Shown: positions 1,477 through 63,890 of the stretch, piece after piece
Position numbering within the stretch: the first letter of the stretch is position 1
Layout of the letters: the number at the start of each line of letters is the position of its first letter
Assembly: GCF_004293625.1 (NCBI RefSeq)
Contig: NZ_CP033040.1
Location: 1,302,001 to 1,366,000 of the forward strand
From: Thiomicrorhabdus indica
GTDB lineage: Bacteria > Pseudomonadota > Gammaproteobacteria > Thiomicrospirales > Thiomicrospiraceae
DNA length: 64,000 nucleotides
Direction of reading: 5' to 3'
The notes under the pieces: generated by a model
Databases searched by the model: none
What the model was told of the DNA's origin: nothing
What the model saw: the letters and a program-made list of their open reading frames with translations, nothing else
Position numbers and translations under genes: made by a program

Positions 1477-1486
1477 ACCGGCCGGT
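1477..1486. repeat. ACCGGCCGGT palindrome copy 1 (intergenic)
   Basis: Lies 18 bp past the stop codon of the convergent DUF5610 gene and 58 bp past the terminator at 1391-1419. The palindrome is 10 bp only. Confidence 0.95.
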
Positions 1487-1504
1487 AAGAATTAACAATC
1501 TCAA

Positions 1505-2188
1505 CTACTCAGCCTTTTCTGAGTCCGTTGCAGGTGCCTCATCAACAATGCCTAAGAAATCTTTACGAAACTGTTCCATTCCTTTTTGAACTAAGTCAAA
1601 TGTTGCGTTGTAGTTTTCTTCCACGGTATCTTCAAAGACATTCAAATCGCCAAGAAATCCTTTGGCTTGTTCAAACCCTTGAATCAGCCCACCACCGACT
1701 ACGTCCATGAATTTATCCATTAAAGCTTCGCCTTCAAGTTCAGGGTGAGCATTTTGAAACCCAGATAAAAACCCGGTTGCACCATCGACAATACGTTTGG
1801 CCGTATTTTCAGATGACCAATATTCCATGCCACCTTGTTCTTCAAGTTTTTGCTGGCTCACTGGATCTGCAGCTTCACTGTCAAGACCTAAATCAATGCG
1901 CAATTTCTCATTGATTGCTTCAATAGCCGACTGATAGCTGACTTTCATTGAGAAAAGTTCAATGTCTTGTTTTGAACCTTGATTGAAAAGGTGAGTGATA
2001 ACACTGGCATTTTGTTGCAGTTTTGCCGAGTGGAAGGTTTTGTCAACGGCCATTTGTGCAATAGGAGAGGCATTATCTGGCAAATCAGGTCGGTTTTTCA
2101 AAGCGGCTTGTTTATCAGAAGCAACTTCCATTTTCATTGAGTTTTGGTAACTTTGGATTGAACTAAGAGTTTTCATATCGACAGCCAT
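1505..2188 (-). CDS. DUF5610 domain-containing protein
   Basis: This 227-residue protein has no signal peptide or membrane segment. Residues about 50-210 match what I recall of the DUF5610 family: an N-terminal helix region (KLQQNASVITHLFNQG), a segment with AIEAINEKL, then AKRIVDGATGFLSGF, the glycine-rich VVGGGLIQGFEQAKGFLGDL and a C-terminal FDLVQKGMEQF. The function of the family is unknown. The start is well supported: an AAGGAG Shine-Dalgarno lies 5 nt before the ATG. It is transcribed on its own, convergent with the response regulator and divergent from prfB. The C-terminus is acidic (DEAPATDSEKAE). Family assignment is from memory of the pattern, not a search. Confidence 0.75.
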   Translation of the reverse strand: MAVDMKTLSSIQSYQNSMKMEVASDKQAALKNRPDLPDNASPIAQMAVDKTFHSAKLQQNASVITHLFNQGSKQDIELFSMKVSYQSAIEAINEKLRIDLGLDSEAADPVSQQKLEEQGGMEYWSSENTAKRIVDGATGFLSGFQNAHPELEGEALMDKFMDVVGGGLIQGFEQAKGFLGDLNVFEDTVEENYNATFDLVQKGMEQFRKDFLGIVDEAPATDSEKAE

Positions 2189-2375
2189 TAGAGTCTCCTT
2201 TTTTCAAATCTTATCCTAGTGATAGTTTATAACGGCCAGTAATAAAAAACCTTGAATTTTATTTTGTTGGTTTTCAAGGTGTTATGGAGTTGTTAAATGA
2301 GATGTCTTTGCTTTTTTTAATCGGAAACTGGTATCATTCCGGCAATTTTTCAATGCGTGTCCCGAGGCTCGAATC

Positions 2376-3471
2376 ATGGAATTGAATCCAATCTATAACC
2401 GAATCAATGATTATCAAGAACGTACCCAAGTGCTTAGGGGGTATCTTTGACTATGATGTCAAAGCGGAACGTTTAGAAGAGGTCAACCGTGAATTGGAAG
2501 ACCCTAATGTTTGGAATGATCCTGAAAAAGCACAATCGTTGGGTAGAGAAAAGTCGCAGCTAGAGAATATCGTTGCGACGATTCAAGACTTAGAGGGCGG
2601 GTGTGAAAGCGCCAATGAATTATTGGAATTGGCGGAAATGGATGGCGATGAAGAGATGGTCTCGGAAGTTGAAACCGAATGTGACCGACTAGGTGAACTC
2701 ATCGATAAGCTGGAGTTCCAACGAATGTTCTCAGGTGAGATGGATGTCAATAATTGTTATCTAGAAATTCAATCTGGGTCAGGTGGAACTGAAGCGCAAG
2801 ACTGGGCAAATATGATTTTGCGTATGTATCTGCGTTGGGCAGATTCCCACGGTTTTAAGTCAGAAATTGTTGAAATCACCGATGGGGACGTCGCTGGTAT
2901 AAAAGGTGCAACGGTTCATATTCAAGGGGATTATGCTTATGGTTGGGCGCGAACCGAAACTGGTGTTCACCGTTTAGTCCGCAAATCACCCTTTGATTCC
3001 AATGCCAAACGTCATACCTCGTTTGCATCCGTGTTCGTGTCACCAGAAATTGATGACAGTTTTGAAATTGAAATCAATCCTGCTGATTTGCGAATTGATG
3101 TGTATCGAGCTTCGGGTGCCGGTGGTCAGCACGTCAACAAAACTGAATCTGCAGTACGTATTACCCATTTGCCGACCAATACGGTAACTCAATGTCAAAA
3201 TGGCCGATCACAGCATCAAAATAAGGCAGAAGCCATGAAGCAGCTGCGTGCAAAATTGTACGAATTGGAAATGCAAGAACGTAATTCTGAGAAGCAGGCG
3301 CTGGAGGATTCAAAGTCTGATATTGGATGGGGAAGCCAGATTCGTTCCTATGTTCTTGATTCAGGTCGAATTAAAGATTTACGAACCAGTGTGGAAACAG
3401 GGAATTGTAATGCGGTGTTGGATGGAGCTCTTGATCAGTTTATTGAGGCCAGTTTGAAAGCTGGGATTTAA
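2376..3471 (+). CDS. prfB: Peptide chain release factor 2, expressed by programmed +1 frameshift
   Basis: RF2 recognises UGA and UAA and releases the finished peptide from the ribosome. The gene must be read in two frames. It starts at ATG 2376 (GAGG 8 nt upstream), runs 24 codons to CTT at 2445-2447, meets an in-frame TGA at 2448-2450, and continues in the +1 frame from GAC at 2449. The spliced product is 364 residues, close to the 365 of E. coli RF2. The N-terminus [10 protein letters not shown] matches the family only with this start. The SPF anticodon-like tripeptide (RKSPFDSN) and the GGQ catalytic motif ([12 protein letters not shown]) are both intact. A naive call would start at ATG 2407 in the wrong upstream context. 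lysS follows, as in many proteobacteria. Confidence 0.97.
2430..2451 (+). promoter_or_regulatory. RF2 autoregulatory +1 frameshift site
   Basis: The site contains an internal Shine-Dalgarno-like AGGGGG (2436-2441), the slippery CTT (2445-2447), the stop TGA (2448-2450) and a following C. This is the canonical layout AGGGGGTATCTTTGAC. Low RF2 slows UGA reading and favours slipping to GAC, so RF2 controls its own synthesis (established for E. coli; inferred here from the identical site). Confidence 0.97.
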
Positions 3472-3641
3472 TGTTGATCGCGCATTGCCAGTTGTGTGTT
3501 TTAAAAAGACGCTACCAGTTCATCCTGAAGGCTCTCACTGCACATCTTGTGCTGTGAAGCTTTTGAAAACAACAACTGCCATGCTTTTAAACTTTGTGAA
3601 GTAAAGCATTCGCACTATATTTCTAATAGATGCTCTAAAAC

Positions 3642-3663
3642 AACTCTACCGGCCGGTAGAGTT
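3642..3663. repeat. ACCGGCCGGT palindrome copy 2, extended to a 22-bp perfect palindrome
   Basis: The core is 3648-3657. The arms extend symmetrically through AACTCT/AGAGTT to 22 bp, the longest copy in the window, about 170 bp after prfB. It could form a cruciform, or a hairpin that ends prfB transcripts, but only a short T run follows. Confidence 0.95.
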
Positions 3664-3704
3664 TAGGCGTTAAACAACGTAAAATACCGCACAATTATAA
3701 ATTC

Positions 3705-3716
3705 TACCGGCCGGTA
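3705..3716. repeat. ACCGGCCGGT palindrome copy 3 (prfB-lysS gap)
   Basis: The core is 3706-3715, extended to 12 bp with T/A flanks. It is 58 bp from copy 2 (core start to core start) and 40 bp before the lysS start. Confidence 0.95.
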
Positions 3717-3755
3717 AAGCTTTTGGCCGACTTAATAACTTAAGTGAGTAAACCG

Positions 3756-10020: not shown

Positions 10021-10542
10021 GTGTCAAACCAACAAGAGTTTCTAACCTTTAAATTAGGTAAAGAAGAGTATGCCGTCGAAATCATGAGAGTTCAGGAGAT
10101 TCGAGGGTGGCAAGAGCCAAGTCCTTTACCGCAGGTTCCACCTTTTGTAAAAGGTGTTGTGGATCTTCGTGGCTCGATTGTTCCAATTATTGATCTGCGC
10201 CAACGGTTCAACTTACCTCAATCCTACGATGGCACGACGGTGGTCATTGTTGTGAATGTAAAAACACGAATCGGCGATCGAGTGATTGGTTTAGTCGTCG
10301 ATGCGGTCTCAGATGTTAAAACTTTGGATTTGGATAATCTACAGCCACCACCAGATATTTCAGATTCAATTGATTCCCAGTTTATTCGTGGATTGACGAC
10401 GGTTTTTGATCAATTAAGCCCGACATCTGGCCAGACTGACGAACAGAAGAAAAATAAAAAAGGGCGTATGGTTGTTATTTTGGATATCGATTTAATTGCG
10501 AGTGATGGTTTGATTGAGGAAATCACTCAGCAACAAGCATAA
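10021..10542 (+). CDS. cheW: CheW-like chemotaxis coupling protein
   Basis: CheW links chemoreceptors to the kinase CheA. This 173-residue protein is a single CheW domain: FLTFKLGKEEYAVEI at the N-terminus, VPPFVKGVVDLRGSIVPIIDLRQRF in the middle and MVVILDID at the end are all family hallmarks. It starts with GTG, with TTGGAG 7 nt upstream. It stands alone, away from any cheA or motility operon. It could be the core CheW or one of several paralogues. A short Gln/Lys-rich insertion (about 140-150) precedes the last strands. Confidence 0.92.
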   Translation: MSNQQEFLTFKLGKEEYAVEIMRVQEIRGWQEPSPLPQVPPFVKGVVDLRGSIVPIIDLRQRFNLPQSYDGTTVVIVVNVKTRIGDRVIGLVVDAVSDVKTLDLDNLQPPPDISDSIDSQFIRGLTTVFDQLSPTSGQTDEQKKNKKGRMVVILDIDLIASDGLIEEITQQQA

Positions 10543-10555: not shown

Positions 10556-10571
10556 CATACCGGCCGGTATG
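10556..10571. repeat. ACCGGCCGGT palindrome copy 4, 16-bp palindrome
   Basis: The core is 10559-10568, with symmetric CAT/ATG arms. It sits just after the cheW stop in the gap between convergent cheW and nadB. Confidence 0.95.
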
Positions 10572-10594: not shown

Positions 10595-10604
10595 ACCGGC
10601 CGGT
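10595..10604. repeat. ACCGGCCGGT palindrome copy 5
   Basis: This is the second copy in the same 88-bp gap, 36 bp from copy 4. The palindrome is 10 bp only. Confidence 0.95.
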
Positions 10605-12684: not shown

Positions 12685-13146
12685 ATGCAGTCAAACAGCT
12701 ATAGTCAAAATTTAAACGAAACAGGACGAGTGGTTGATGTTTCAGATGAGTATGTCTGGGTTGAAACGCAAAGAAAATCGGCGTGTGGAAGTTGCCAAAA
12801 CTCTTCAGGATGTGGGACGGGAAGTTTGTCTAAGTTATTTGTTAATGACAAGCCTGCCTTGTTAAAAGTGCCAAAAACGTTTGAAGTGAAGGTTGGAGAC
12901 CATGTTCATTTGAGTATTGATAAGCAATTTTTTATACAACAGATTTTTCTCGCTTATGGGTTGCCGCTTATCGGCTTTTTTGCAGGTGCTGTTATTTTTG
13001 AAGGCTTAACGGCATCGTTTTTAATTCAGGGAGAGTTACTTACGATTGTAGGTGGAATTATTGGCTTGTTTGGTGGCTGGTGGGGTTCAAAAAAACTTTA
13101 CCGGCCGGTACTTCCTAAAATAGTTAAAGTTGAAAACTTTAATTAA
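12685..13146 (+). CDS. rseC: RseC/MucC-family membrane protein
   Basis: This 153-residue protein matches the RseC/MucC family: an N-terminal cytoplasmic part with a cysteine cluster C-x2-C-x5-C (ACGSCQNSSGCGTG), then two membrane helices (QQIFLAYGLPLIGFFAGAV and LLTIVGGIIGLFGGWW) and a short basic tail. E. coli RseC has 159 residues. Relatives modulate sigma-E signalling or electron transfer (SoxR reduction via the Rsx system). I start at ATG 12685, preceded by AGGAAAG; the frame is open further up to a TTG at 12580 but that stretch has no family similarity. The last codons contain palindrome copy 6. mucD follows after 89 bp. Confidence 0.85.
   Translation: MQSNSYSQNLNETGRVVDVSDEYVWVETQRKSACGSCQNSSGCGTGSLSKLFVNDKPALLKVPKTFEVKVGDHVHLSIDKQFFIQQIFLAYGLPLIGFFAGAVIFEGLTASFLIQGELLTIVGGIIGLFGGWWGSKKLYRPVLPKIVKVENFN
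13099..13110. repeat. ACCGGCCGGT palindrome copy 6 (inside rseC)
   Basis: The core is 13100-13109, 12-bp with flanks. It reads Tyr-Arg-Pro-Val near the C-terminus, one of only two exact copies in the N/Y-R-P-V frame. Confidence 0.95.
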
Positions 13147-19222: not shown

Positions 19223-19236
19223 TTACCGGCCGGTAA
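19223..19236. repeat. ACCGGCCGGT palindrome copy 7 (era-recO gap)
   Basis: The core is 19225-19234, 14-bp with TT/AA flanks. It fills the middle of the 62-bp gap between era and recO. Confidence 0.95.
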
Positions 19237-20851: not shown

Positions 20852-20861
20852 ACCGGCCGGT
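20852..20861. repeat. ACCGGCCGGT palindrome copy 8 (immediately before acpS)
   Basis: Ends 5 nt before the acpS ATG, exactly where a Shine-Dalgarno would normally be. Confidence 0.95.
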
Positions 20862-20866
20862 ATAAA

Positions 20867-21250
20867 ATGATTATAGGGATTGGGACTGATATTGTAGAAA
20901 TCGCTCGCATTGAAAAAATGCTGGCGAATCATCCCCAATCGTTTCCAGAACGGTTATTGACTGAATTTGAACTAAAAGACTTTGCGACTAAAAAATTTCC
21001 TGAAAAATTTTTAGCGAAACGTTGGGCGATTAAAGAAGCCATTTCAAAAGCCTTGGGAACAGGGATTGCAAAGGGCGTTAGCTTCACTGATATGGAAGTT
21101 TCTCATACCGAATTAGGCGCACCAGTCCTTCGTTTAACCGGCCGGTCAAAAAAACGAGCCGATGAATTGGGGATTCAAAACTGGCAAATCAGCGTCAGTG
21201 ATGAACAGCATTATTGCGTTGCCTTTGCGCTTGCCCAAGACTCGTTCTAA
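20867..21250 (+). CDS. acpS: Holo-[acyl-carrier-protein] synthase
   Basis: AcpS transfers the phosphopantetheine arm from coenzyme A to acyl carrier protein. The protein starts IIGIGTDIVEIARIEKM (metal-binding D in GTDIVE) and has FLAKRWAIKEAISKALG with the second metal-binding glutamate, both family signatures. The 127 residues match E. coli (126). No GGAG-like site precedes the ATG; the 15 bases upstream are mostly a palindrome copy. A second copy lies inside the gene and encodes Leu-Thr-Gly-Arg-Ser at 21137. It may be coupled to pdxJ. Confidence 0.96.
   Translation: MIIGIGTDIVEIARIEKMLANHPQSFPERLLTEFELKDFATKKFPEKFLAKRWAIKEAISKALGTGIAKGVSFTDMEVSHTELGAPVLRLTGRSKKRADELGIQNWQISVSDEQHYCVAFALAQDSF
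21137..21146. repeat. ACCGGCCGGT palindrome copy 9 (inside acpS)
   Basis: Reads Thr-Gly-Arg, the only exact in-gene copy in this frame. Confidence 0.95.
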
Positions 21251-21279: not shown

Positions 21280-21675
21280 ATGATTTCTATGCAATTAACA
21301 TTTCATTCAGACGAATTTTCCAATCTACCACTCGATGATCAATGTCAGCAGTTAAAAAACTTTTTTGAATCTCAAATCGACCGAATTGACCGCCAATTAG
21401 TTCGTGATTTAAGTTTTATTTCACAGCTTGCTCATTACAAAGAAGGAATGAAAATCATTCGGGTTGAATCGATACCGGCCGGTAAAAACTTGGATCGTTT
21501 TTATCTATACTTTGAATACGAATGGCATATTTTTCAAGGGTGTATGGCAATGGAAGACAGCGGCATAATGAAGGATAAAGTCAAATTCTCCATCGACTCT
21601 TCAAGTATACCCTTGCACAGCATCATACTGGATTTAACCCCTTTCCAAACCCTTTCTACCGCAGATGAACTCTAA
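21280..21675 (+). CDS. Hypothetical protein, no recognised family
   Basis: I do not recognise this protein of about 131 residues. It is soluble, without signal peptide or membrane helix, and alternates charged helical N-terminal sequence (QQLKNFFESQIDRIDRQL) with strand-rich aromatic sequence (DRFYLYFEYEWHIFQGCM). It starts 30 bp after acpS, probably at ATG 21280 or ATG 21289; GGAG is at 21273-21276, rather close to the first and rather far from the second. It contains a palindrome copy read as Ile-Pro-Ala-Gly-Lys. Co-direction suggests it ends the acpS transcript. Length, codon use and a plausible ribosome site make it likely to be real. Confidence 0.6.
   Translation: MISMQLTFHSDEFSNLPLDDQCQQLKNFFESQIDRIDRQLVRDLSFISQLAHYKEGMKIIRVESIPAGKNLDRFYLYFEYEWHIFQGCMAMEDSGIMKDKVKFSIDSSSIPLHSIILDLTPFQTLSTADEL
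21473..21484. repeat. ACCGGCCGGT palindrome copy 10 (inside hypothetical gene)
   Basis: The core is 21474-21483, 12-bp with T/A flanks. Read as Pro-Ala-Gly followed by Lys. Confidence 0.95.
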
Positions 21676-21834: not shown

Positions 21835-24060
<2,226 letters not shown>

Positions 24061-24068: not shown

Positions 24069-24080
24069 TACCGGCCGGTA
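24069..24080. repeat. ACCGGCCGGT palindrome copy 11 (after icd)
   Basis: The core is 24070-24079, 12-bp with flanks, 9 bp after the icd stop codon. Confidence 0.95.
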
Positions 24081-34413: not shown

Positions 34414-37400
34414 ATGACTGATCTTACCCGTAATAATTTTGTACACCTTCATGTCCACTCTGAATATTCAGTTGTCGATGGAACACTTAGAGTTAAGGAT
34501 TTAATTTCGAAAGCCTCCGCATTTGAACAACCAGCGGTTGCTCTGACAGATCAGTCGAACCTTTACGCTCTTGTTAAATTTTATAGCAGCGCAATAGGGG
34601 CCGGTATAAAACCAATAGTGGGTTCTGAAATCTGGTTGGAAGATGAACAGACATCAGAAGTTTTTCGAGTAGTTTTGCTTTGCCAAAATTCACAGGGCTA
34701 TTTGAACTTATCTCATTTATTGTCGATGGGCTTTCTGAAGAACCAGCAGATTCATCAATCACAGCAAGTGCCGCTGATTAAGCGTGCTTGGTTAGCGGAG
34801 TACAGTGACGGGTTAATTGCTCTCTCTGCTGGGCGAGAAGGTGATGTCGGTGTTGCACTTCTTGCACAAAACCAAGCCTTAGTCGCTCAGCGTGTCCAAT
34901 GGTGGCAAAAACATTTTCCTAACCGCTATTATCTGGAACTGATTCGTACCGGCCGGGAGAATGAGGAAACTTATCTTCAGTTAGCTCTGTTATTGTCTGA
35001 GCAGTATTCTTTACCGGTTGTAGCAACCAATGATGTGCGATTCATGACGCCCGAAGATTTTGAGGCGCATGAAGTTCGTACTTGTATTCATGATGGCTAT
35101 ATTTTAATTGACCAAAACCGCCCTAAGCGTTATTCGGAACAGCAGTATCTGCGTTCAACCGATGAAATGTTGGCGTTATTTTCTGATATCCCCGAAGCTC
35201 TGCAAAACTCGTTTGAAATCGCCAAACGCTGTTCGTTGGATTTAACCCTTGGCACTTATTTCTTACCCGACTTCCCAATTACTGAAGGCATGACGATGGA
35301 TGAATTTTTTGTCCAAGAGAGTCATCAAGGTCTGGATGAGCGTTTAGAGTTTTTGTTTGGCCAAGAGACACCTGATGTTCAAGCGAAAAAAAGAGCGGAA
35401 TATTACGATCGTATTAAGTTTGAGCTCGATATTATTTTGCAAATGGGGTTTCCAGGTTACTTCTTAATTGTTGCCGATTTTATTCAGTGGGCAAAAAATC
35501 ACCAAATTCCGGTTGGTCCAGGGCGTGGGTCAGGTGCTGGTTCATTGGTAGCGTACGCGCTAAAAATTACCGATTTGGATCCGATTAAATATGACCTGCT
35601 ATTTGAACGTTTTCTAAACCCAGAACGTGTTTCCATGCCTGACTTTGATGTTGATTTTTGTATGGATCGACGTGATGAAGTGATTGATTATGTTTCACGA
35701 CATTATGGGCGAGACCATGTGTCGCAAATTGTGACCTTCGGAACCATGGCTGCCAAGGCCGTTGTGCGTGACGTTGGGCGTGTTTTGGGAATGGGTTATG
35801 GTGCCGTGGATAGCATTGCCAAACTGATTCCAAACGAGTTGGGAATTAAACTCAAAGATGCAGTTGAAGAAGAGGAAATGAAAGCGCGTCGAGAGTCGGA
35901 TGAAGATGCGGACCAGTTGCTTGAACTGGCATTAAAGCTTGAGGGGACTGTTCGAAATACCGGTAAACACGCAGGGGGTGTAGTTATCGGTCCCAAACCT
36001 CTAGATCATTTTTGTCCTGTTCAGTCAGAAGCAGATGGTTCTTCTGTAGTGACACAATTGGATAAAAATGATGTTGAAACTGCTGGATTAGTGAAATTTG
36101 ACTTCTTAGGTCTTCGAACTCTAACCATCATTGATTGGGCGTTGCAGTCTATTAATGGCAATAAAACGCCTAATGATGAGGGTTTTTTGGATATTGCGCG
36201 AATTCCGTTAGATGATGGGCAAACGTTTGAGTTAATTAAAACGGGTAAAACTACCGGGATTTTCCAGCTAGAGTCGTCTGGTATGCAAAACTTGATTGTT
36301 AAACTGCGTCCGGACTGTTTTGAAGACATTATCGCTTTGGTTGCATTATTTCGTCCTGGTCCGCTTGAATCCGGAATGGTTGATAACTTTATCAATCGAA
36401 AACATGGTCGCGAAAAAGTTTCGTATCCAGATCCGCAATTTCAGCATGACAGTCTGCAACCGATTCTAGAGCCCACGTATGGAGTCATTCTTTACCAAGA
36501 GCAAGTTATGCAGATTGCACAGGTTTTAGCCGGTTATACACTCGGTGGCGCTGATTTGCTCCGACGAGCAATGGGTAAAAAGAAACCTGAAGAAATGGCC
36601 AAACAGCGCTCAGTCTTTAAAGATGGTGCTGTAGGAATTGGGGTCGACGGTGATTTGGCCATGAAAATATTCGACTTGGTTGAAAAATTTGCCGGTTATG
36701 GTTTTAACAAATCTCACTCGGCAGCTTATGCATTGGTTTCTTATCAGGCCGCTTGGCTGAAAACGCATTATCCAGCTGAATTTATGTCCGCGCAGATTTC
36801 TTCTGACATGGATAACACAGAAAAAGTCGTTCATATGATCAATGAGTGTTATGCGATGGGCTTGACGGTTAACCCTCCTAATATTAATTTGGGACAAATT
36901 CATTTTAAACCGGCCGGTGACAATGCGGTTAATTATGGTTTGGGTGCAATTAAAGGTGTCGGTGAATCTGCTTTAGAAGGAGTCATTGCTGAAAGGAGTG
37001 CAAATGGAGCCTTCACGGATTTATTTGATTTTGCGTTACGTGTTGGTAAAAAACTGAATAAACGAGTGATTGAATCATTGATTCGTTCTGGGGCTTTGGA
37101 TTGTTTGCATGATAATCGTAATGCAATGTTGCAAAGCATTCCAATGGCTTTGAAACAGGCTGAGCAACAGATTAAAAATGAAGCCGCTGGGCAAAGTGAT
37201 CTGTTTGGAGAAATGCTGAGTGTTGATCACGCAGGTGAAAATAAGCTTATTGAGGTGAGTGAGCTTGCACAAAAGCAAAAATTGGCGTTTGAAAAAGATA
37301 CTTTGGGTCTTTATATGACAGGGCACCCAATTGATACTTACGAGCAAGAGCTAAAACAGTTGATAAATCGCTCCTTAATTAATTTGCGTCCAGATAAATG

Positions 37401-37902: not shown

Positions 37903-38293
37903 TTGATAAAACTCTTTTCATATTTAGGCTGTGCTTGGAGTTGGTCTGCTTGCCTATTAATTGTGATTAACTTTCGTAAAAAAAGTCAGAGGTTGATTGT
38001 TTTCGGGGTGCGATTTTTTCAGTCAACTGGTAAACTTCCACTAAATTTTTACCCGTAAGGGATAGATTAACCGGCCGGTAGAGATTCATTGGTAAAATGA
38101 AGGCTCTATCGGCGATTTAGATTAGATCGCTTGCAAAACTCGCTTAGGGCTTAGCGAAAAATATTTTTATTTGAACATACTGAAGTGCTTACAAGTTCTA
38201 GTACGACAGTGGTGTGCTAAAAAAATATTTTGCGGTACGGCATAGTGCGGTTTGCAGGACGAAAATTGAATACTCAGACGCTTAGGAGTAACC
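37903..38293. other. dnaE-acs gap with palindrome and AT dyads
   Basis: This 391-bp gap has no supported gene. It holds palindrome copy 14 and, nearer acs, two AT-rich dyads, CGAAAAATATTTTTA (38155-38169) and TAAAAAAATATTTTGCG (38218-38234), which are imperfect inverted copies of each other 48 bp apart. These could be binding sites controlling acs. No clear terminator for dnaE was found. Confidence 0.4.
38070..38079. repeat. ACCGGCCGGT palindrome copy 14 (dnaE-acs gap)
   Basis: The 10-bp core has no symmetric flanks. It lies 168 bp after dnaE. Confidence 0.95.
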
Positions 38294-42507: not shown

Positions 42508-44358
42508 ATGGCTTTGATACAGCAACGAGAATTTCTTTCTAAAATCACACCGTTTACCGAACTGCCTAACGATTTGTTAAATCAACTCGCTGATAGCATG
42601 GATATTGTCTACTTGCCCGAACGGACTGAAATCACTTTTCAAAACGAATTGGCGCTACTTTATATTTTGATTAAAGGAAAAGTTACGGAGTACCGTGATG
42701 AAGAAGTGACTTCTCATTACAGTGTGAGAGGTTTCTTTGGGGACAGCGCGATTCTTGAAAAGTCTCAAAGCCACGTCAAGTTCGTGGTGGATGAAGAGGC
42801 GATTGCCTATAAGTTACCGGCCGGTAAGTTTCTGCACGCTTTTAACGAGCACGAAGCTTTTGCAGATTTTTTTAATGCATCCATTGTTGAAAAACTTAAT
42901 CGAATTCATGAAACCCAACAGACGGCCACTTCGACAGAAGTGATGATGGATACAGTAATCAGTGCGCCTATTCAGAAACTGGTTTCAGTTACTCAAAAGG
43001 CCAGTATTTTAGAAGCTACTCAGGCGATGACTGATGCGCGTTCAGATGCTTGTTTAGTTGAGTTTTCTGAAGGAGAGAGTGGAATTATTACTTCAACTGA
43101 TATTTTGAAATTCGTCGCACTGGGTGAAACCGATAGAATTAATGCACCTAGTGGGGTGCAATCTATTTGTAACCGGCCGGTCTATTCTGTGCATGAATTT
43201 GATTATCTTTTTAACGCATTACTTAAAATGACTCGCTTTCAAATTGACCGTTTAGCGGTTCGTAGTGATTTAGGGTTTGTTGGTTTTTTGCATCAGAAGG
43301 ATTTAATGAGTCTGTTTGCTAACCAATCCGGTTTGGTGTTAACAAAAGTCGAAAAATCAACCACGGTTGAGGATTTGATTGGTATTGGTGAGCAAGTTGA
43401 TGCGATGGTGCATAATCTGAATCGTAAAGGGATTAAAACCCATTACATTGCCAAACTTGTCAATGAACTTCATCGAAAAATGATTGCCAAATTGGTTGAA
43501 TTTATCCTACCTGAAACATTGCAGGAGAAAGTCTGTCTATTTGTTATGGGTTCAGAAGGCCGTTCAGAGCAAGTTATTCGTACCGATCAAGATAATGCGC
43601 TGATCTATGACAATGAGTTAAATGCTGAGCAATTGACGCAATTGCATGCGTTTACAAAAGCGTTTACGGAAAATCTCATGAAAATGGGATTTCCTCCCTG
43701 TCCGGGAAACATCATGCTCTCAAACCCTGAATGGTGCCAGAGTCAGGCCAGTTTTTCACAAACGGTAGAAGGATGGTTTGATGAAAGTACGGAAGGAAGC
43801 TTTATGAATGCAGCGATTTTATTTGATGCAGAGTTTGTCTTTGGTGAGTCGCACTGGTTAAATGACATAAAGCGTTTATTGATCCATCTAAATATTAAAC
43901 ATTCCAATTTCTTACGCCACTTTGCCATACAGTCTCTAAAGTTTAATACCCCTGTTGGCTTTTTTGGCGGCTTGATTGCTGATTCGGAATCAGGAATTGA
44001 AGTGATTGATATTAAAAAAGGTGGAATTTTTAGTATTGTGCATGGAATTCGATGTTACGCCCTCGAACTTGGGATTAAGGCGACTAATACACATTGGCGA
44101 ATTAAAGCCTTAATGGATGCTGGGGTTTTCGAGCAAGAATTTGGTATCGAATTAGGGGAAACACTTAACTTTTTAAATACTCTTAGATTGGAGTCCATGT
44201 TGCATCAATTGGATTCAGGGGTTGAATTGCCCGACAATAAAATTCGTTTGGCGGAGTTAAGCCATATGCAACAAGACTTACTTAAACAAAGTTTTAATGT
44301 GGTTGATGTTTTTAAAAAACGACTTTCACATCATTTTGGTTTGAATGGAATGTTGTAA
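42508..44358 (+). CDS. cNMP-binding/CBS/DUF294 nucleotidyltransferase-like protein
   Basis: This 616-residue regulator-like protein has a cyclic-nucleotide-binding fold (about 10-130), a CBS pair (about 155-275) and a GlnD-like nucleotidyltransferase domain DUF294 with GSEGRSEQ at 348-355 and the acidic pair D360/D362 in TDQDNAL, followed by the DUF294 C-terminal domain. The catalytic-looking residues are kept, but the substrate of this family is not established. I start at ATG 42508 with AGGA 9 nt upstream; TTG 42499 is less likely. Its stop overlaps the exonuclease start by one base. Such a pair often lies near acs/actP genes. Palindrome copies encode Leu-Pro-Ala-Gly-Lys and Asn-Arg-Pro-Val. 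Confidence 0.9.
   Translation: MALIQQREFLSKITPFTELPNDLLNQLADSMDIVYLPERTEITFQNELALLYILIKGKVTEYRDEEVTSHYSVRGFFGDSAILEKSQSHVKFVVDEEAIAYKLPAGKFLHAFNEHEAFADFFNASIVEKLNRIHETQQTATSTEVMMDTVISAPIQKLVSVTQKASILEATQAMTDARSDACLVEFSEGESGIITSTDILKFVALGETDRINAPSGVQSICNRPVYSVHEFDYLFNALLKMTRFQIDRLAVRSDLGFVGFLHQKDLMSLFANQSGLVLTKVEKSTTVEDLIGIGEQVDAMVHNLNRKGIKTHYIAKLVNELHRKMIAKLVEFILPETLQEKVCLFVMGSEGRSEQVIRTDQDNALIYDNELNAEQLTQLHAFTKAFTENLMKMGFPPCPGNIMLSNPEWCQSQASFSQTVEGWFDESTEGSFMNAAILFDAEFVFGESHWLNDIKRLLIHLNIKHSNFLRHFAIQSLKFNTPVGFFGGLIADSESGIEVIDIKKGGIFSIVHGIRCYALELGIKATNTHWRIKALMDAGVFEQEFGIELGETLNFLNTLRLESMLHQLDSGVELPDNKIRLAELSHMQQDLLKQSFNVVDVFKKRLSHHFGLNGML
42814..42827. repeat. ACCGGCCGGT palindrome copy 15
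   Basis: The core is 42816-42825, 14-bp with TT/AA flanks. Read as Pro-Ala-Gly in the cNMP-like domain. The surrounding bases match copy 20 in the methyltransferase gene. Confidence 0.95.
43172..43181. repeat. ACCGGCCGGT palindrome copy 16
   Basis: In the same gene as copy 15 but a different frame; read as Asn-Arg-Pro-Val in the CBS region. Confidence 0.95.
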
Positions 44359-45223: not shown

Positions 45224-45676
45224 GTGAGATTAGAAGAAAAACTTGAACAGCTTTTAGCGCCCACGATTGAGTCTATGGGCTTTGAATTGTGGGGTATTGA
45301 ATATATACCGGCCGGTAAACATTCAACACTTCGTATTTATATTGAAAAAGAAGGCGGCGTAAATGTTGATGATTGCAGTGATGTAAGTCGTCAGGTAAGT
45401 GCCATTATGGATGTAGAAGACCCGATCAGCAGTGCCTACAACCTAGAAGTTTCCTCGCCTGGTATGGATCGTCAGCTATTCAAACCTGAGCAATTTATCC
45501 GCTACAAAGGTGAGCAGGTACAAATTCGCACCAGTATTGCCGTTTTAGGACGCAAGCGTTTCAAAGGACCAATGCTGACAGTCACAGAAGACGGTATCGA
45601 AGTGGAAGTGGATGCTGAACTTTACGAAATTCCATTTGATTTAATTGAAAAAGCCAACCTTGTGGCTGTGTTTTAG
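45224..45676 (+). CDS. rimP: Ribosome maturation factor RimP
   Basis: RimP helps assemble the 30S subunit. The 150-residue protein has the family pattern APTIESMGFELWGIEYI, STLRIYIEKEGGVNVDDCSDVSRQVSAIMDVEDPI and YNLEVSSPGMDRQLF. I start at GTG 45224 (GGAT 9 nt upstream); the frame is open upstream, but an earlier TTG at 45170 would lie in the terminator. Palindrome copy 17 encodes Ile-Pro-Ala-Gly-Lys in the first beta strand pair, where E. coli has a short different loop. It opens the rimP-nusA-infB operon. Confidence 0.94.
   Translation: MRLEEKLEQLLAPTIESMGFELWGIEYIPAGKHSTLRIYIEKEGGVNVDDCSDVSRQVSAIMDVEDPISSAYNLEVSSPGMDRQLFKPEQFIRYKGEQVQIRTSIAVLGRKRFKGPMLTVTEDGIEVEVDAELYEIPFDLIEKANLVAVF
45306..45317. 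repeat. ACCGGCCGGT palindrome copy 17 (inside rimP)
   Basis: The core is 45307-45316, 12-bp with T/A flanks. Read as Pro-Ala-Gly followed by Lys. Confidence 0.95.
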
Positions 45677-50406: not shown

Positions 50407-51348
50407 ATGGCACAGTATCGCAACCCACCCAAACAAGATATTCATGGCATTGTCCTGTTAAATAAACCGGCCGGTGTTTCTTCCAATGGGATCTTACAAA
50501 AAGTGCGCCGTCTGTTTAATGCCAAAAAAGCTGGACATACAGGAGCTCTAGATCCTTTTGCCACAGGACTTCTACCGATTTGCTTAGGAGAGGCGACTAA
50601 AGTTTCCGGATTGCTTTTGGATTCGGATAAAGGCTATCGAGCGACTTTAAACCTAGGCGAGCAATCGGATACTGGAGACACTGAAGGTGAAATTATTTCC
50701 ACACAGTTAGTGCCTGAATTAAGCGTTGAAAAAATAGAAGCAACCTTGGCCGATTTTATTGGAGATATTCAACAAATTCCGCCTATGTATTCGGCTTTGA
50801 AACACAACGGCAAACCGCTTTATTGGTATGCTCGACAAGGAATCGAAATTGACCGGCCGGCGAGAAATATTCATATCTTTTCATTAAAGCTTGTTTCATT
50901 TTCTCAAGAATCGAAAGGTACTGCGCAAATCGTATTTGATGTTTTGTGTTCAAAAGGCACATATGTTCGAACATTAGGCGAAGATATTGCTAAAGCAATC
51001 GGCACAGTTGGCCATTTAACCGCTTTACACCGAATTCAAAGTGGGTCTTTGCGTGCTGAACAAATGTTGACGATTGAACAAATTGAAGAAGCAATCACTT
51101 CAGGCAAGGGTGATGATATTCTTTGGCCGGTGGATTTGCCGCTAGAGCATTTGCAAAGAATTGATTTGGTTGAGGATCAAGCAAAGTGGTTACGAAATGG
51201 GGGGCAACTTCGGTTACCGAAACCAGAAACGGAGTTAGTTCGCTTTTATAATCCAGATGGGATTTGTTTGGGGGTCGGAGAATGGATGCCTGAACATGAA
51301 CGTATTAAGCCAAAACGTTTGTTTAATCTTCCAGAGTTGGATAAATAA
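50407..51348 (+). CDS. truB: tRNA pseudouridine-55 synthase
   Basis: TruB makes pseudouridine 55 in the T loop of tRNAs. The 313-residue protein shows LLNKPAGVSSN at the start, the catalytic GHTGALDPFATGLLP with D49, and YSALKHNGKPLYWYARQG. Length equals the E. coli protein (314). The conserved Lys-Pro-x-Gly motif at 20-23 is encoded by palindrome copy 18, and a one-mismatch copy lies at 50852. It abuts the methyltransferase gene with no gap, so the two are coupled. In E. coli rpsO and pnp follow directly; here three other genes intervene. Confidence 0.97.
   Translation: MAQYRNPPKQDIHGIVLLNKPAGVSSNGILQKVRRLFNAKKAGHTGALDPFATGLLPICLGEATKVSGLLLDSDKGYRATLNLGEQSDTGDTEGEIISTQLVPELSVEKIEATLADFIGDIQQIPPMYSALKHNGKPLYWYARQGIEIDRPARNIHIFSLKLVSFSQESKGTAQIVFDVLCSKGTYVRTLGEDIAKAIGTVGHLTALHRIQSGSLRAEQMLTIEQIEEAITSGKGDDILWPVDLPLEHLQRIDLVEDQAKWLRNGGQLRLPKPETELVRFYNPDGICLGVGEWMPEHERIKPKRLFNLPELDK
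50466..50475. repeat. ACCGGCCGGT palindrome copy 18 (inside truB)
   Basis: Read as Pro-Ala-Gly within the conserved N-terminal motif of TruB. Confidence 0.95.
50852..50861. repeat. One-mismatch palindrome copy in truB
   Basis: ACCGGCCGG followed by C. Read as Asp-Arg-Pro-Ala. Confidence 0.8.
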
Positions 51349-52215
51349 ATGTCAGAAAAACTATACCAAAAAGCCGATGGAATTCTGGATTTAAGAAGCC
51401 GAGAGAGTTTTCTTTCCGGCCACTTAGTTGATTCGACCTGGATGGGTTTTGAGATGCTAGCGGAAAGTTTAAATCAATTACCTGCTGCGCCCGCGGTGTT
51501 ATTTTTAGTGGGCGATAAACCTGAAATTGAAGAGGCGAGTATCTTTTTGGATGCCAAAGGCTATGAAGTGAATGGCTCTTTGGTAATCAATGAAAATACA
51601 TTGGTTTTTTGGCAAAGGTCTTTGCAACAGGACTGGACTGAAGGAAAAGAGTCAAAGCAATTATGGCAGCCATCAAGAATTGTATTGGATTGGTTAGAAA
51701 ATTATCGTAACGATTTAGATATTGAGCGTCCAACCGTATTAGATTTAGGATGCGGTGGAGGTCGTGATGCAGTGTTCTTGGCAAAACAAAAAATGTCGGT
51801 GACAGCCATCGACAATAAAGGCAATGTTCTTAAGCGTGCCAAGCAATTAGCACAAAGCTCAGGGGCTCAGGTGACATTTAAATGCTGTGATTTATCAAAG
51901 ACAGTAAAAACTGAGAATGATGAATGTTTACCGGCCGGTAAGTTTGATGTGATTTTAGGCGTTCGTTTTTTAAATCGAGCCTTGCTTTCACAATTGAGCA
52001 ATAAACTGTCACCCAATGGTTTTTTGCTGTGGGAAACCTTTGTTGATAATGGTGAATTTCTAGAATCCCCAAAAAACCCAAATTTTATTTTAAAAACAGG
52101 TGAGTTAGCCGAAGTTTTTAAAGACCTTAATATTATTACTGATAAAATACAAAAAATCTCGGATGGTCGCCCTGTGAACGCATTTATCGCACGGAAACCG
52201 GCCGGTAAAATTTAA
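51349..52215 (+). CDS. Rhodanese-like/SAM-dependent methyltransferase fusion
   Basis: The 288-residue protein has an N-terminal rhodanese-like part (about 1-95: DGILDLRSRESFLSGHLVDST, then LFLVGDKPEIEEA as separate stretches) without the active-site cysteine, and a C-terminal class I methyltransferase with SAM-binding VLDLGCGGGRDAVFLA (130-145). The methyl acceptor is unknown; the methyltransferase part resembles TehB-type small-molecule enzymes in outline. It follows truB directly. Two exact palindrome copies lie in it, one of which encodes almost the C-terminus (Lys-Pro-Ala-Gly-Lys-Ile). Confidence 0.85.
   Translation: MSEKLYQKADGILDLRSRESFLSGHLVDSTWMGFEMLAESLNQLPAAPAVLFLVGDKPEIEEASIFLDAKGYEVNGSLVINENTLVFWQRSLQQDWTEGKESKQLWQPSRIVLDWLENYRNDLDIERPTVLDLGCGGGRDAVFLAKQKMSVTAIDNKGNVLKRAKQLAQSSGAQVTFKCCDLSKTVKTENDECLPAGKFDVILGVRFLNRALLSQLSNKLSPNGFLLWETFVDNGEFLESPKNPNFILKTGELAEVFKDLNIITDKIQKISDGRPVNAFIARKPAGKI
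51928..51941. repeat. ACCGGCCGGT palindrome copy 19 (methyltransferase gene)
   Basis: The core is 51930-51939, 14-bp with TT/AA flanks. Read as Leu-Pro-Ala-Gly-Lys-Phe, the same peptide as at 42816. Confidence 0.95.
52197..52206. repeat. ACCGGCCGGT palindrome copy 20 (C-terminus of methyltransferase gene)
   Basis: Ends nine bases before the last base of the stop codon. Read as Pro-Ala-Gly. Confidence 0.95.
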
Positions 52216-57492: not shown

Positions 57493-57567
57493 AAGCCTGA
57501 ATCCCTAAATTTATTTGCTTGTGTAAATTAAATGATACCGGCCGGTTAAGTTTAGGGATTCAGGTTT
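57493..57567 (+). promoter_or_regulatory. Long hairpin in the pnp leader, likely RNase III target
   Basis: Arms 57493-57513 and 57547-57567 pair over 21 bp with two G-U pairs; the central 14 bp (CCTGAATCCCTAAA and its complement) are perfect. The 33-nt loop ends with palindrome copy 21. In E. coli the pnp leader has a long stem cut by RNase III, after which PNPase represses its own mRNA; the position and length here fit that role. No other gene lies in this 340-bp gap. Confidence 0.75.
57537..57546. repeat. ACCGGCCGGT palindrome copy 21 (pnp leader)
   Basis: Forms the last ten bases of the loop of the pnp leader hairpin, next to its 3' arm. Confidence 0.95.
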
Positions 57568-59933: not shown

Positions 59934-62852
59934 ATGAAAAAACAACATCCAGCATTTGAATTGTTAGGCGAAACACCAATTGAAACCTTAAAACTTACGG
60001 TAGAGCACTATCGACATAAAGTCACAGGTGCAGAACATTATCATTTGAGTGCGGACGATCCGCAAAATGTGTTTATGGTCGCATTACGTACCGTGCCAAT
60101 GGACTCTACCGGTGTTGCCCATATTTTGGAACATACCGTATTGTGTGGGTCTGAAAAATATCCAGTCCGTGATCCATTTTTTATGATGATTCGTCGTTCA
60201 TTGAATACTTTTATGAATGCGTTTACATCGAGTGATTGGACGGCTTATCCATTTGCTACAGAAAATCGCAAGGATTTTCAAAACTTATTGCAGGTCTATA
60301 TGGATGCCGTGTTTTTTCCAAACATTGATCCTCTGGATTTTGCTCAGGAAGGGCACCGTTTTGAGTTTGAAGAGATGGATAACCCTGAGTCAAAACTGAC
60401 GTATAAAGGTGTTGTCTTCAATGAAATGAAAGGTGCGATGAGCTCACCAGTTTCGACGCTGTGGCAAACCTTAACGACTGAGTTGTATCCGACATCAACG
60501 TATCACTATAACTCGGGTGGTGAACCTGAGGATATTCCCAATTTAACTTATCAACAATTAAAAGATTTCCATAGTCTTCACTATCATCCGTCCAATTCTG
60601 TGTTTATGACTTATGGCGATATTTCGGCATTAGAACATCAAACGCAATTTGAAGAGTTGGCATTGGTACGATTCAATGACAAGGTTGAAAAAATTACTGT
60701 TAATACTGAGCAAAGATTCTCAGTTCCTAAAACAGTCAAACGCAATTATGCCCTAGATGAAGCAGAGACAAAGCAAAAAACTTATATCAATATTGCTTGG
60801 TTACTGGGTGAAAACAAAGATCCATTGGAAGTCCTTAAAGGCCATTTGTTGTCTGCAGTCTTGCTAGATAATTCCTCATGCCCCATGCGCAAGCTATTAG
60901 AAGATACAGAACTTGCACAAGCGCCATCTCCACTATGTGGCTTTGAAGAATCGAATAAAGAAATGGCATTTGTGTTGGGCGTGCAAGGTTCAGAAGCTGA
61001 GCATACAGAAGAATTCGAAAAACTGGTATTGGACGAATTGCATCGCATTGCGAATGAAGGGGTTGATCCTGAGTTACTTGAAGCGATGTTACATCAATTG
61101 GAGCTTTCCCAGCGTGAAGTGGGGGGAGATTCTTACCCTTACGGTTTGCAAATGATTTTGCACTCTTTGGCAGGAGCTATGCACGATGGCGACCCAATAG
61201 CACTACTAGATGTGGATGCGGCTCTAAAACAACTTGAAGGTGAAATTAAAGATCCGAAATTTATTCCGAATTTAATTCAATCATGGTTGCTAGATAATCC
61301 TCATCGTTTGACATTGACTATGGTGCCAGATAAAGAGCTTTCTGCGAAGAAAGAACAAGCAGAAATTCAAAAATTAGCCAAGATTCAATCGGAATTAACC
61401 TTTGAACAGAAGCAACAGATTGTTGATCAAGCCTTGGCTTTGGCAAAGCGTCAGGAGCAGATGGATGACCCTAGTCTTTTACCAGAGGTAACTAAAGAAG
61501 ACATTCCTGTAGATATTAAAAATCCAGAGGGTGAACATCGTCAAATGGGTTCATTGCCGGTGACTGATTATGTATGTGGTTCTAATGGCATTAGCTACCA
61601 ACAAATGGTAATGCAAATGCCTGAATTAACCAACGATCAGCAAGCATTGATGCCGTTATTCAGTAGTTCACTGACTGAGATGGGCTCAGGAGAGCGTGAT
61701 TATTTGCAAACGCAAGCACTGCAAGCTGCAGTAACAGGTGGAATGGGGGCGCGTACAGCATTGCGTGATAATTTGAATGATTCTCAAAACCCTCACAGTC
61801 ACTATGTATTGAGTGCCAAAGCATTGAATCGAAATGTTCAACCTATGAGTGAAATTTTGCACGATACACTGCATGCACCGAACTTTTTAGAACATCAACG
61901 TTTAAATGATCTGTTTTCTCAAATTCGTGCTGGAATTGATCAGGGTATTACGGGTTCTGGACATATGCATGCCATGATGACAGCAGTCCAAAACTTTACG
62001 CCAATTTCCAAATGGAAGTTTGATCGCAGTGGTTTTGCTGGTATCCGAGCGATTAAAGATTTATATGAATCAGTTCAGACTGCACCAGAGAAGATTGAAG
62101 AAATCGCAGAGAGTTTGACTACGATCGCACAAAAAATTTCTCAATCGCCAAAACAGGCTTTGGTTGTGTCTGATGAACAAGGAATTGAAGAGGCATTACA
62201 TGCTGTAGATTCAGTTTGGGGGCAAGAATCCGAGTATGCAGGACAAAAAGAATTTAGCCTTCAGGCCTCAAACTTGCCAGTCAAACAAGCTTGGATTACA
62301 TCAACACAAGTGAACTTCTGCGCTATGGCTTATCCTGCCGTGCCAAGCGGTCATCCAGATGCTCCGAAACTGGCTGTTTTAGGTGCTTGTTTACGAAATG
62401 GTTTCTTACATACCGCAGTTCGTGAAAAAGGTGGTGCATACGGCGGAGGCGCAAGTTTTAATTCAGAAGCGGCTGGGTTTGTATTTTATTCTTATCGTGA
62501 TCCTCGATTGATGGAAACCTTTGATGACTTTGCTCAAGCAAAAGATTGGTTAATGTCTTCGGAAGCGACTCAAGCTAAAGTGGATGAAGCGATTTTGAAC
62601 GTGATTTCAGCGATGGATAAACCGGGTTCACCGGCCGGTGAAATGAAAAAAGCGTTTTTTCAGCAACTTTATGGGCGCACTTATGATGTTCGGATGGCAT
62701 ACCGACAAGGAGTCATTTCGACCACTATTGATGAATTGCGTGCCTTAGCAGAAAAATACTTTAATCCTGAAAAAGCTTCCTACGCTGTGCTCACTCATAA
62801 AGGCACAATTGAAGCGCTTCAAGATCAGGGATTTGAGAGCTTCACTCTTTAA
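59934..62852 (+). CDS. M16C metalloprotease, PreP/insulinase family
   Basis: This 972-residue zinc protease has the inverted zinc motif HILEH at 63-67 followed by TVLCGSEKYPVRDPFFMM, and the distal glutamate in GVVFNEMKGAMSSP, all typical of the M16C group that includes presequence protease PreP. The duplicated halves are complete, with REKGGAYGGGASFNSEAA near the C-terminus, typical of the substrate-binding half. No signal peptide is seen, so it is probably cytosolic and degrades peptides. Palindrome copy 22 encodes Ser-Pro-Ala-Gly-Glu. It is monocistronic with a terminator. Confidence 0.93.
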   Translation: MKKQHPAFELLGETPIETLKLTVEHYRHKVTGAEHYHLSADDPQNVFMVALRTVPMDSTGVAHILEHTVLCGSEKYPVRDPFFMMIRRSLNTFMNAFTSSDWTAYPFATENRKDFQNLLQVYMDAVFFPNIDPLDFAQEGHRFEFEEMDNPESKLTYKGVVFNEMKGAMSSPVSTLWQTLTTELYPTSTYHYNSGGEPEDIPNLTYQQLKDFHSLHYHPSNSVFMTYGDISALEHQTQFEELALVRFNDKVEKITVNTEQRFSVPKTVKRNYALDEAETKQKTYINIAWLLGENKDPLEVLKGHLLSAVLLDNSSCPMRKLLEDTELAQAPSPLCGFEESNKEMAFVLGVQGSEAEHTEEFEKLVLDELHRIANEGVDPELLEAMLHQLELSQREVGGDSYPYGLQMILHSLAGAMHDGDPIALLDVDAALKQLEGEIKDPKFIPNLIQSWLLDNPHRLTLTMVPDKELSAKKEQAEIQKLAKIQSELTFEQKQQIVDQALALAKRQEQMDDPSLLPEVTKEDIPVDIKNPEGEHRQMGSLPVTDYVCGSNGISYQQMVMQMPELTNDQQALMPLFSSSLTEMGSGERDYLQTQALQAAVTGGMGARTALRDNLNDSQNPHSHYVLSAKALNRNVQPMSEILHDTLHAPNFLEHQRLNDLFSQIRAGIDQGITGSGHMHAMMTAVQNFTPISKWKFDRSGFAGIRAIKDLYESVQTAPEKIEEIAESLTTIAQKISQSPKQALVVSDEQGIEEALHAVDSVWGQESEYAGQKEFSLQASNLPVKQAWITSTQVNFCAMAYPAVPSGHPDAPKLAVLGACLRNGFLHTAVREKGGAYGGGASFNSEAAGFVFYSYRDPRLMETFDDFAQAKDWLMSSEATQAKVDEAILNVISAMDKPGSPAGEMKKAFFQQLYGRTYDVRMAYRQGVISTTIDELRALAEKYFNPEKASYAVLTHKGTIEALQDQGFESFTL
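62627..62642. repeat. ACCGGCCGGT palindrome copy 22, 16-bp palindrome
   Basis: The core is 62630-62639, extended by TTC/GAA. In the M16 protease gene, read as Pro-Ala-Gly. Confidence 0.95.
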
Positions 62853-62880
62853 GTTCTTTATGATTTTGATGACTCTTTCA

Positions 62881-62908
62881 AAAAAGCCAATAATTTAATT
62901 GGCTTTTT
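62881..62908 (+). terminator. Rho-independent terminator after the M16 protease gene
   Basis: AAAAAGCCAAT pairs with ATTGGCTTTTT around a short AT loop, followed by T. Confidence 0.9.
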
Positions 62909-62961
62909 TCGTTTAGAATGAATGACTTTCTAAGTATCTTATATAAATTGGGCAGAAAACG

Positions 62962-63817
62962 TTGTTGATAACGCCTTATGTTAGAGTAGTTCTTGGACAT
63001 AGAATAATAGCAGGTTTTACGCAAGTGACTTCACAAACTCAGCCAAATATTTTAGACAAAATTGAATACAGAGATCAGTCTGGCCGCGAATATTCACTGG
63101 ATTGCCGCCGTTGTGCATCCATGATAAATTTTGATTTTAGTTATGCGTTTCAACCGATTATTAATGCCGATCTAAAGCAGATATTTGGTTATGAAGCGTT
63201 GGTTAGAGGACCTAATAGTGAATCTGCATGGAGCGTTATTTCGAAAGTTAATGATGATAACCGATATGCATTCGATCAAATCTGTCGTCAAAAAGCGATT
63301 CGTATGGCGGCTGAGCTGAATGTTCAGTCTATGCTCAGTATCAATTTTCTTCCTAATGCTGTATACGAGCCGGAACACTGCATTCAAAGTACCTTAAAAG
63401 CTGCACATGAAGTGAATTTTCCCGTTGAGAAGATTATGTTTGAAGTTACAGAATCTGAAAAAGTCTTAGATCGCAAACATCTCACTAACATCTTCCAGTA
63501 TTACCATTCTCAAGGTTTTACTGTGGCATTGGATGATTTTGGTGCTGGGCACGCAGGGTTGAATATGTTGTCGAGTTTTGTTCCGGATATACTCAAAATT
63601 GATATGGAATTATGATCAAGATAAGGTGAAACAGATTATAGCCAGAAACCTTGTTAAGATGTGTCAAGAGCTTAAGGTAACAGTACTGGCTGAAGGAATT
63701 GAAACCCAAGAAGAATATCAATTCTATCGTGATTTGGGTGTGAACTTATTTCAAGGTTATCTTTTCGCTAAACCCGGTTTTGAGTGTCTGCCCGAAATCG
63801 ACTGGTCGGTTGCTTAA
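62962..63817 (+). pseudogene. EAL-domain protein gene broken by a frameshift near 63605
   Basis: The first frame (62962-63615) encodes most of an EAL domain with intact GYEALVRG, MLSINFLPNAV, FEVTESEKV and DDFGAGHAG, then hits TGA right after KIDMEL. The rest of the domain continues in the +1 frame to 63817 (DQDKVKQIIARNLVKM, VLAEGIETQEEY, FQGYLFAKPGF). Relatives have about four residues (such as IRNI) between MEL and DQD; here they are missing, fitting an 11-nt deletion at about 63610. As read, the catalytic domain is truncated. It could be a true pseudogene or a sequencing error. The start is uncertain (TTG 62962 or GTG 63025). No sensor domain is present. Confidence 0.85.
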
Positions 63818-63880
63818 GGTATCAAGTGAAAACTGCAAGAAGAACGTCTTTTTATTTAATAAGACGCTCATCAAATGTTC

Positions 63881-63890
63881 ACCGGCCGGT
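63881..63890. repeat. ACCGGCCGGT palindrome copy 23 (near right edge)
   Basis: Its last base is the first base of the stop codon complement of the minus-strand gene at the edge. Confidence 0.95.

Follow-up and report, generated by a model that had tools for sequence, protein, structure and literature searches.

A highly iterated palindrome of Thiomicrorhabdus indica as a dialect of a putative DNA uptake signal in Thiomicrospiraceae

The uptake signal sequences (USS) of Pasteurellaceae have been described as carrying an AT segment in which A comes before T, as occupying stable sites that are not insertions, and as falling into two subclade types (PMC1626085); the extended form of the Hin type has been given as AAAGTGCGGTCAATTTT (PMC12616744). 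For Neisseriaceae, eight dialects of the DNA uptake sequence (DUS) have been described, together with family members devoid of it and overlapping dyads in Simonsiella (PMC3630211), and a secondary use in transcription termination has been reported for both DUS and USS. HIP1, the highly iterated palindrome of cyanobacteria, has alternate words, deviates at its end bases and goes with methyltransferases (PMC4390886). Here we compare with these systems the 10-bp palindrome ACCGGCCGGT of T. indica, which an earlier note had singled out in a 64,000-nucleotide stretch of the chromosome (contig NZ_CP033040.1, positions 1,302,001 to 1,366,000; the window) as highly iterated, likening it to HIP1 and competence uptake sequences. 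We consider it probable that ACCGGCCGGT, together with its flanking AAA-N-TTT, is the T. indica dialect of a putative DNA uptake signal sequence, and the palindrome may be composed of two overlapping half-sites facing in opposite directions.

Abundance and structure of the motif in T. indica

A recount of the window gave 23 exact copies and precisely three whose single deviation is at an end base (30072, 34948 and 50852), as the earlier note had it; the order-1 expectation for exact copies, 0.012, is close to its hand estimate of roughly 0.02, and its GC content of about 42% is corrected to 40.4%. With up to one mismatch, 0.47 copies were expected from 100 dinucleotide shuffles, the largest value being 4. 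The genome-wide count that had been proposed as a check was equally clear: in the whole chromosome, a single contig of 2,829,883 bp, the palindrome occurs 1025 times and its reversed control once, which rules out an effect local to the window. To describe the copies we used a sample of 464 kb (16% of the chromosome), made of the window and 20 evenly spaced stretches of 20 kb, where 174 exact copies were found and 0.26 expected (order-3 model, motif masked); an artefact of the Markov or shuffle models is ruled out by the counts against all three expectations. The sample also holds 47 one-mismatch copies, 28 of which are changed at the two end positions.

The copies are dispersed over the whole sampled chromosome, with 1–13 in each 20-kb stretch, and their spacing is slightly even (variance/mean 0.67 over 46 bins of 10 kb), gaps shorter than 60 bp being over-represented (11 of 153, with 3.4 expected). 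The stretch at 1,820,001–1,840,000 of T. indica (L022), which has a single copy in its 20 kb and a GC content (39.2%) below that of every other sampled stretch, may be acquired DNA. Outside the motif, neither CCGG (864 found, 788 expected at order 1) nor GGCC (822 found, 1011 expected) is clearly enriched, though the longer inner word CCGGCCGG is (30 against 1.7 expected), mostly as end variants of the motif; CAGGCCTG, the core of other dialects, is absent from the sample, where 3–4 copies were expected.

The palindrome forms just the middle part of a longer motif that includes AT segments. Outside the 10 bp, on one or both sides, positions +1 to +3 favour A and positions +5 to +7 favour T, with no signal past about +8; TTT at +5 to +7 is present in 21% of 346 flanks, against a background of 3.9%. 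The consensus of 203 T. indica sites, aaw..ttACCGGCCGGTaa..wtt, was anchored on CCGGCCGG and therefore includes end-base variants. Read outward from the centre, the T. indica half-site is (G)CCGGT-AAAN-TTT, to be compared with GCGGT-CAA-TTTT of the Pasteurellaceae USS; the half-site CCGGTAAANTTT resembles the extended Hin-USS, and its TTT flank is like the ‘segment 2’ described for USS (PMC1626085). Thus, the AT segment beside the core has A first and T last, as in USS.

Dialects, gain and loss in the family

The exact palindrome is rare in relatives, with 0–15 copies in each of 31 other Thiomicrorhabdus genomes and 0–14 in each of 28 family genomes outside the genus, which rules out a word fixed in the genus. 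The earlier note would have been refuted by a lack of shared excess in every related genome: within Thiomicrorhabdus this is what the exact 10-mer shows, but relatives carry other words of similar build, and we therefore regard the palindrome as a fast-changing dialect and not as a fixed word. The word of many relatives is ACCAGGCCTGGT, whose inner 10-mer, CCAGGCCTGG, exceeds 100 copies in 26 of the 59 other family genomes (10 within Thiomicrorhabdus and 16 outside) and is entirely missing from T. indica. Further palindromic dialects emerged from sampled stretches, namely AACAGGCCTGTT in G005, G018 and G025 and AGCAGGCCTGCT in G008.

Other genomes have one-sided words, counted here in whole genomes with up to one mismatch. 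For CCGGCCTGTTGAGTTT, T. cannonii (G021) has 215 forward and 225 reverse copies, 440 in total, and G004 has 125 and 126, with reversed controls of 0 in both. The word [AG]CCTGGCAGATTT characterises three genomes of another genus, with 214–389 copies: searched as ACCTGGCAGATTT, it gave 118/96 places in G053, 192/154 in G055 and 204/185 in G057, with 1–4 in total for the reversed controls and 0–9 in total in each other family genome. It first emerged from sampled stretches of G055 and G057, which belong to genus g6. One-sided words occur in both orientations, also within single 20-kb stretches; the one-strand look of some of their place lists is an effect of listing, because both strands were found in the same contig. 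A polar replichore motif of the KOPS or Chi kind was rejected on the palindromic core of T. indica and on these mixed orientations.

Altogether at least six dialect words are found across the family, specific to lineages as in USS and DUS. GGCC is common to the palindromic and T. cannonii forms, and absent from CCCAACCTGGCAGATTTT and from a possible poly-C form. In centre-aligned consensuses the AT segment lies at about equal distance from the core in most dialects. The poly-C form refers to four Thiomicrorhabdus genomes (G012, G017, G023 and G029), in which runs of at least 7 C occur at 3.4–7.7 per 10 kb, often with AAATTTtCT in front, and TTT lies within 8 nt of 35 of 57 runs on one side and of 11 on the other; T. 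indica has 8 such runs in 400 kb of its sample, and G022 none in 40 kb. These runs may be another dialect, of which we are less sure than of the others, or phase-variable tracts. In 40 kb of G037 (L267, L268) there are five copies of GGGGTCCCCGACTT, accompanied by a T run; this word is either terminator-like or a further dialect. As a dialect of G031, GGCCTGATGT was weak (5 copies in 80 kb, with no shared context) and was dropped. In G091, a genome of another family, 291 places match ACCTGGCAGATTT with at most one mismatch; among the matches listed most read ACCTGGCAGGTTT (e.g., C3:3288-3316) and many stand 16 bp apart in inverted pairs, which makes them a distinct dispersed inverted-repeat element.

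A tree built from eight proteins of 21 genomes puts T. indica on a long branch next to G026, G020, G013 and G024, while G031 and G014 lie at a greater distance. In 36–120 kb sampled from each of these six no clear motif was found, apart from an island in G013, and the same holds for the sampled stretches of G003, which groups with clade A; 7 of the 21 genomes were thus called motif-poor, each call resting on 36–120 kb. On this tree, losses and one complete change of dialect have apparently occurred within Thiomicrorhabdus. The best named match of the T. indica PdxJ is from Thiomicrorhabdus sp. 6S3-12 (91%).

The island of G013 (contig C11, 225–257 kb; L233, L234) is mobile and has, by eye, genes for phage-type integrases, a relaxase-like HD protein, metal efflux, a copper-oxidase-like protein and a transposase; it probably came from a motif-bearing donor, because it carries five copies of the T. 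indica dialect in 31.8 kb of a genome otherwise poor in the motif. Repeat arrays were observed in G020 (L240: 9891–10058; the 11-bp unit TATAAGAGGTT, in about 15 copies) and in G036 (L132: 817–912; TTCTGG, at least 15 copies in register).

Placement, origin and persistence of the sites

By a simple longest-open-reading-frame rule, a heuristic, 100 of the 174 sampled copies lie inside genes, where 156 were expected from the coding fraction, 73 are intergenic, against about 18 expected, and one spans a gene end. For 67 of the 73 intergenic sites the orientation of the neighbours could be assigned: the density of the motif peaks where genes converge (18 in 4.8 kb), is intermediate between co-directional genes (43 in 28.9 kb) and falls to its minimum where they diverge (6 in 10 kb). 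Gene ends are preferred, and copies are over-represented after stop codons. The genic copies favour one frame, 65 of the 100 reading as xPAG. The sites of the window are collected in Table 1; the earlier split of its exact copies, 11 between genes and 12 inside, agrees with the table of open reading frames.

Table 1. Copies of the palindrome in the window. Gene names are those we take the translations to indicate, except for rimP, acpS and truB, which were compared with homologues.
Position	Strand	Word	Context
1477..1486		exact ACCGGCCGGT	intergenic
3648..3657		exact	prfB-like/lysS-like intergenic; 58 bp to copy at 3706; extended palindrome CTCTACCGGCCGGTAGAG
3706..3715		exact	intergenic
10559..10568		exact	right behind stop at 10542; 36 bp to copy at 10595
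10595..10604		exact	convergent genes either side
13100..13109		exact	inside rseC-like gene, reads YRPV; ungapped at site with 20 relatives
19225..19234		exact	era-like/recO-like intergenic; followed by AAACTTT
20852..20861		exact	pdxJ-like/acpS intergenic
21137..21146		exact	inside acpS, reads TGRS; ungapped at site with 20 relatives
21474..21483		exact	inside open reading frame, reads IPAG
24070..24079		exact	right behind stop at 24060 of icd-like gene
30072..30081	+	one mismatch, ACCGGCCGGG	inside dnaJ/cbpA-like gene; chance match possible
31104..31113		exact	inside clpA-like gene, reads SPAG
34948..34957	+	one mismatch, ACCGGCCGGG	inside dnaE-like gene; chance match possible
36909..36918		exact	inside dnaE-like gene, reads KPAG
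38070..38079		exact	intergenic
42816..42825		exact	inside cNMP/CBS-type gene, reads LPAG
43172..43181		exact	same gene as copy at 42816, reads NRPV
45307..45316		exact	inside rimP, reads IPAG
50466..50475		exact	inside truB, reads KPAG; ungapped with two solved TruB chains (KPQG)
50852..50861	+	one mismatch, ACCGGCCGGC	inside truB
51930..51939		exact	inside small-molecule-methyltransferase-like gene, reads LPAG
52197..52206		exact	3' end of gene of copy at 51930, reads KPAG
57537..57546		exact	upstream of pnp-like gene; followed by TAAGTTT
62630..62639		exact	inside M16C-peptidase-like gene, reads SPAG
63881..63890		exact	beyond last open reading frame of the table

Four genic sites were compared with homologues. 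The alignments run without gaps through the acpS, rseC-like and truB sites and are mixed at rimP, suggesting that, where tested, sites arise by substitution and not by insertion; an insertion-sequence end or inserted element was rejected on these three of the four sites. The statement of the earlier note that the palindrome is neither a dispersed gene family nor an insertion-sequence end is borne out.

As regards persistence, the pdxJ region was compared among relatives, a comparison of one region in which genome pairs are not independent and G021 was counted as motif-poor despite its own dialect. For seven clade-A genomes, 205 places could be aligned in motif-bearing genomes and the 8-bp core is kept at 125 of them, against 6 of 75 in genomes counted as motif-poor, all six being a single recO site in G003; for four clade-C genomes, the figures are 43 of 162 and 6 of 67. 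The recO site is common to the clades, with half-sites near each dialect, TGACCAGGCCTGGTCA in clade A and GAACAGGCCTGGGT in clade C.

An uptake signal and its alternatives

The combination of one-sided dialects, an AT segment, an origin by substitution where tested and the lack of matches to two methyltransferase families fits uptake sequences better than HIP1, and for this reason we read the palindrome as two half-sites. According to this proposal, a surface DNA receptor of the competence machinery would prefer the motif, and motif-bearing DNA from relatives would be taken up and recombined; substitutions creating or restoring a site would then spread by biased transformation, up to hundreds of copies genome-wide. 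Two half-sites overlapping back to back at GGCC would give the palindromic core, T. cannonii and one lineage of another genus would keep the motif one-sided, and a change in receptor specificity would entail replacement of the dialect throughout the genome. Competence of the cells, a bias in their uptake and a receptor for the motif are what we infer from these genomic patterns. The abundance and spread of the motif, its placement, the two orientations of one-sided words and the presence of a ComEC gene in T. indica are also in line with an uptake signal.

The likeness to the USS, of both the Hin and the Apl types, extends to copy numbers of hundreds to thousands, to a core followed by an A-then-T segment, to dialects by subclade, to an origin by substitution and, in one region of relatives, perhaps to stable positions, and the half-site likeness may reflect a shared receptor family. 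The T. indica motif differs from USS in its palindromic core, in the possible presence of AT segments on both sides and in the lack of a further AT segment; moreover, Thiomicrospiraceae have more dialects, and their uptake role is putative. With DUS the family has in common many dialects a few bases apart that follow the phylogeny, members without any motif and, as described for Simonsiella, overlap in dyad symmetry; DUS have a different word with no flanking motif, and the ComP family was not found in Thiomicrospiraceae.

The nearest look-alike for a palindrome is HIP1, which is likewise highly iterated, GC-rich, replaced by other words in some relatives and changed mostly at its end bases. 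A by-product of methylation-directed mismatch repair, with the word set by a cognate methyltransferase (model of Elhai 2015), would explain these features of the T. indica palindrome. However, HIPs go with methyltransferases, and the C5 (PF00145) and N4/N6 (PF01555) families, the only two searched, have no match in T. indica, nor in the motif-rich G015, G022, G027, G033 and G039, although other motif-rich genomes do have PF00145 (e.g., G009, G019 and G030). The lack of matches in T. indica argues against a HIP1-type origin, as do alternate words that are not palindromic (CCGGCCTGTTGAGTTT and [AG]CCTGGCAGATTT), the specific AT segments flanking the core and the lack of a clear enrichment of its inner tetramers, and we judge such an origin quite improbable. 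Thus, of the roles listed by the earlier note, DNA uptake has gained, while the comparison with HIP1 and a methyltransferase target has been weakened.

A rather better case, though still an unlikely one, can be made for the binding site of an abundant dimeric protein, either nucleoid-associated or organising the chromosome: selection would keep the palindromic core, with AT tracts about one helical turn from its centre, at many permissive places, and the specificity of the protein would drift between species. The symmetric core with AT segments on both sides, seen in T. indica and several relatives, would suit a dimer, and the slightly even spacing, the avoidance of divergent intergenic regions and the apparent stability of positions in relatives point the same way; against it stand the non-palindromic dialects of two lineages, the lack of a motif in the sampled stretches of a third of the tree genomes and the absence of an obvious trend in copies per stretch along the contig (in contig coordinates), while swapping about 1000 sites between related lineages would be hard for an essential protein. 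The excess after stop codons and between convergent genes, some extended palindromes and the close pairs of copies would be accounted for by a transcription terminator or an RNA element at gene ends, which we nevertheless deem very improbable, given that more than half of the sampled copies are inside genes and that dialect words change symmetrically; an uninterrupted 10-bp palindrome would also make a poor hairpin. By analogy with DUS and USS, termination can be a secondary use. Finally, the copies could be what a mobile element or a replicating palindrome left behind. This reading has in its favour how numerous they are in a single Thiomicrorhabdus species, together with the copies inside the G013 island; it is hardly credible in view of the ungapped acpS, rseC-like and truB sites, and of copies that share nothing beyond the motif and AT segment.

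Several observations weigh against an uptake signal. The bias of one-mismatch copies to the end positions is also the pattern reported for HIP1, and GGCC is not universal here, whereas DUS and USS dialects retain an inner core. The AT segment is weak in G019 and G027 and not visible in genus g5, and a second one about one helical turn further out, as in the Pasteurellaceae USS, was not found in the T. indica sample. At rimP, a one-residue gap was found with one solved homologue and none with the other. The positional contrast in clades A and C is partly due to relatedness, because the motif-poor genomes are mostly more distant (mostly outside clade A), and none of the six comparisons possible for T. 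indica sites, a species with no close motif-bearing sister, showed a conserved position (four gapped, two different). ComEC (PF03772), the sole competence gene searched, is present in T. indica and in 57 of the 66 genomes searched, among them 6 of the 7 motif-poor tree genomes, and had no match in the motif-bearing, fragmentary assemblies G004 and G006; the motif therefore does not track ComEC. None of the 60 family genomes had a match over the cut-off to ComP_DUS (PF16732), the Neisseria receptor family, with one weak match below it in G020. For the Pasteurellaceae USS a minor pilin of the PpdA/ComN type has been predicted; the T. indica pilin clusters that were read look by eye like a type II secretion system and MSHA, so that no receptor is named. 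In the open-licence literature, titles and abstracts among the matches listed reported neither uptake sequences nor transformation in Thiomicrospiraceae, and for the exact motif words the titles among the matches listed look unrelated.

Beyond T. indica, we are evenly divided on whether Thiomicrospiraceae, a family of sulfur-oxidising autotrophs, should be added as the third bacterial family to use uptake signals for self-DNA. A half-site with its AT segment would there be either duplicated back to back into palindromes or kept one-sided, and the word would be respelled at such a pace that one species retains none of the ancestral 10-mers and has about 1000 of its own. So far, signals of this sort are known in just two bacterial families besides. 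If the uptake reading is true, the coevolution of receptor and motif and the genetic isolation between species would become directly testable. The origin, switching and decay of such systems could then be followed in a third family, which has at least six dialects, some palindromic and some one-sided, and has apparently lost the motif in places. The search for the receptor would gain many natural receptor–motif pairs, and the presence of the signals would point to natural transformability, now or in the past, in these autotrophs.

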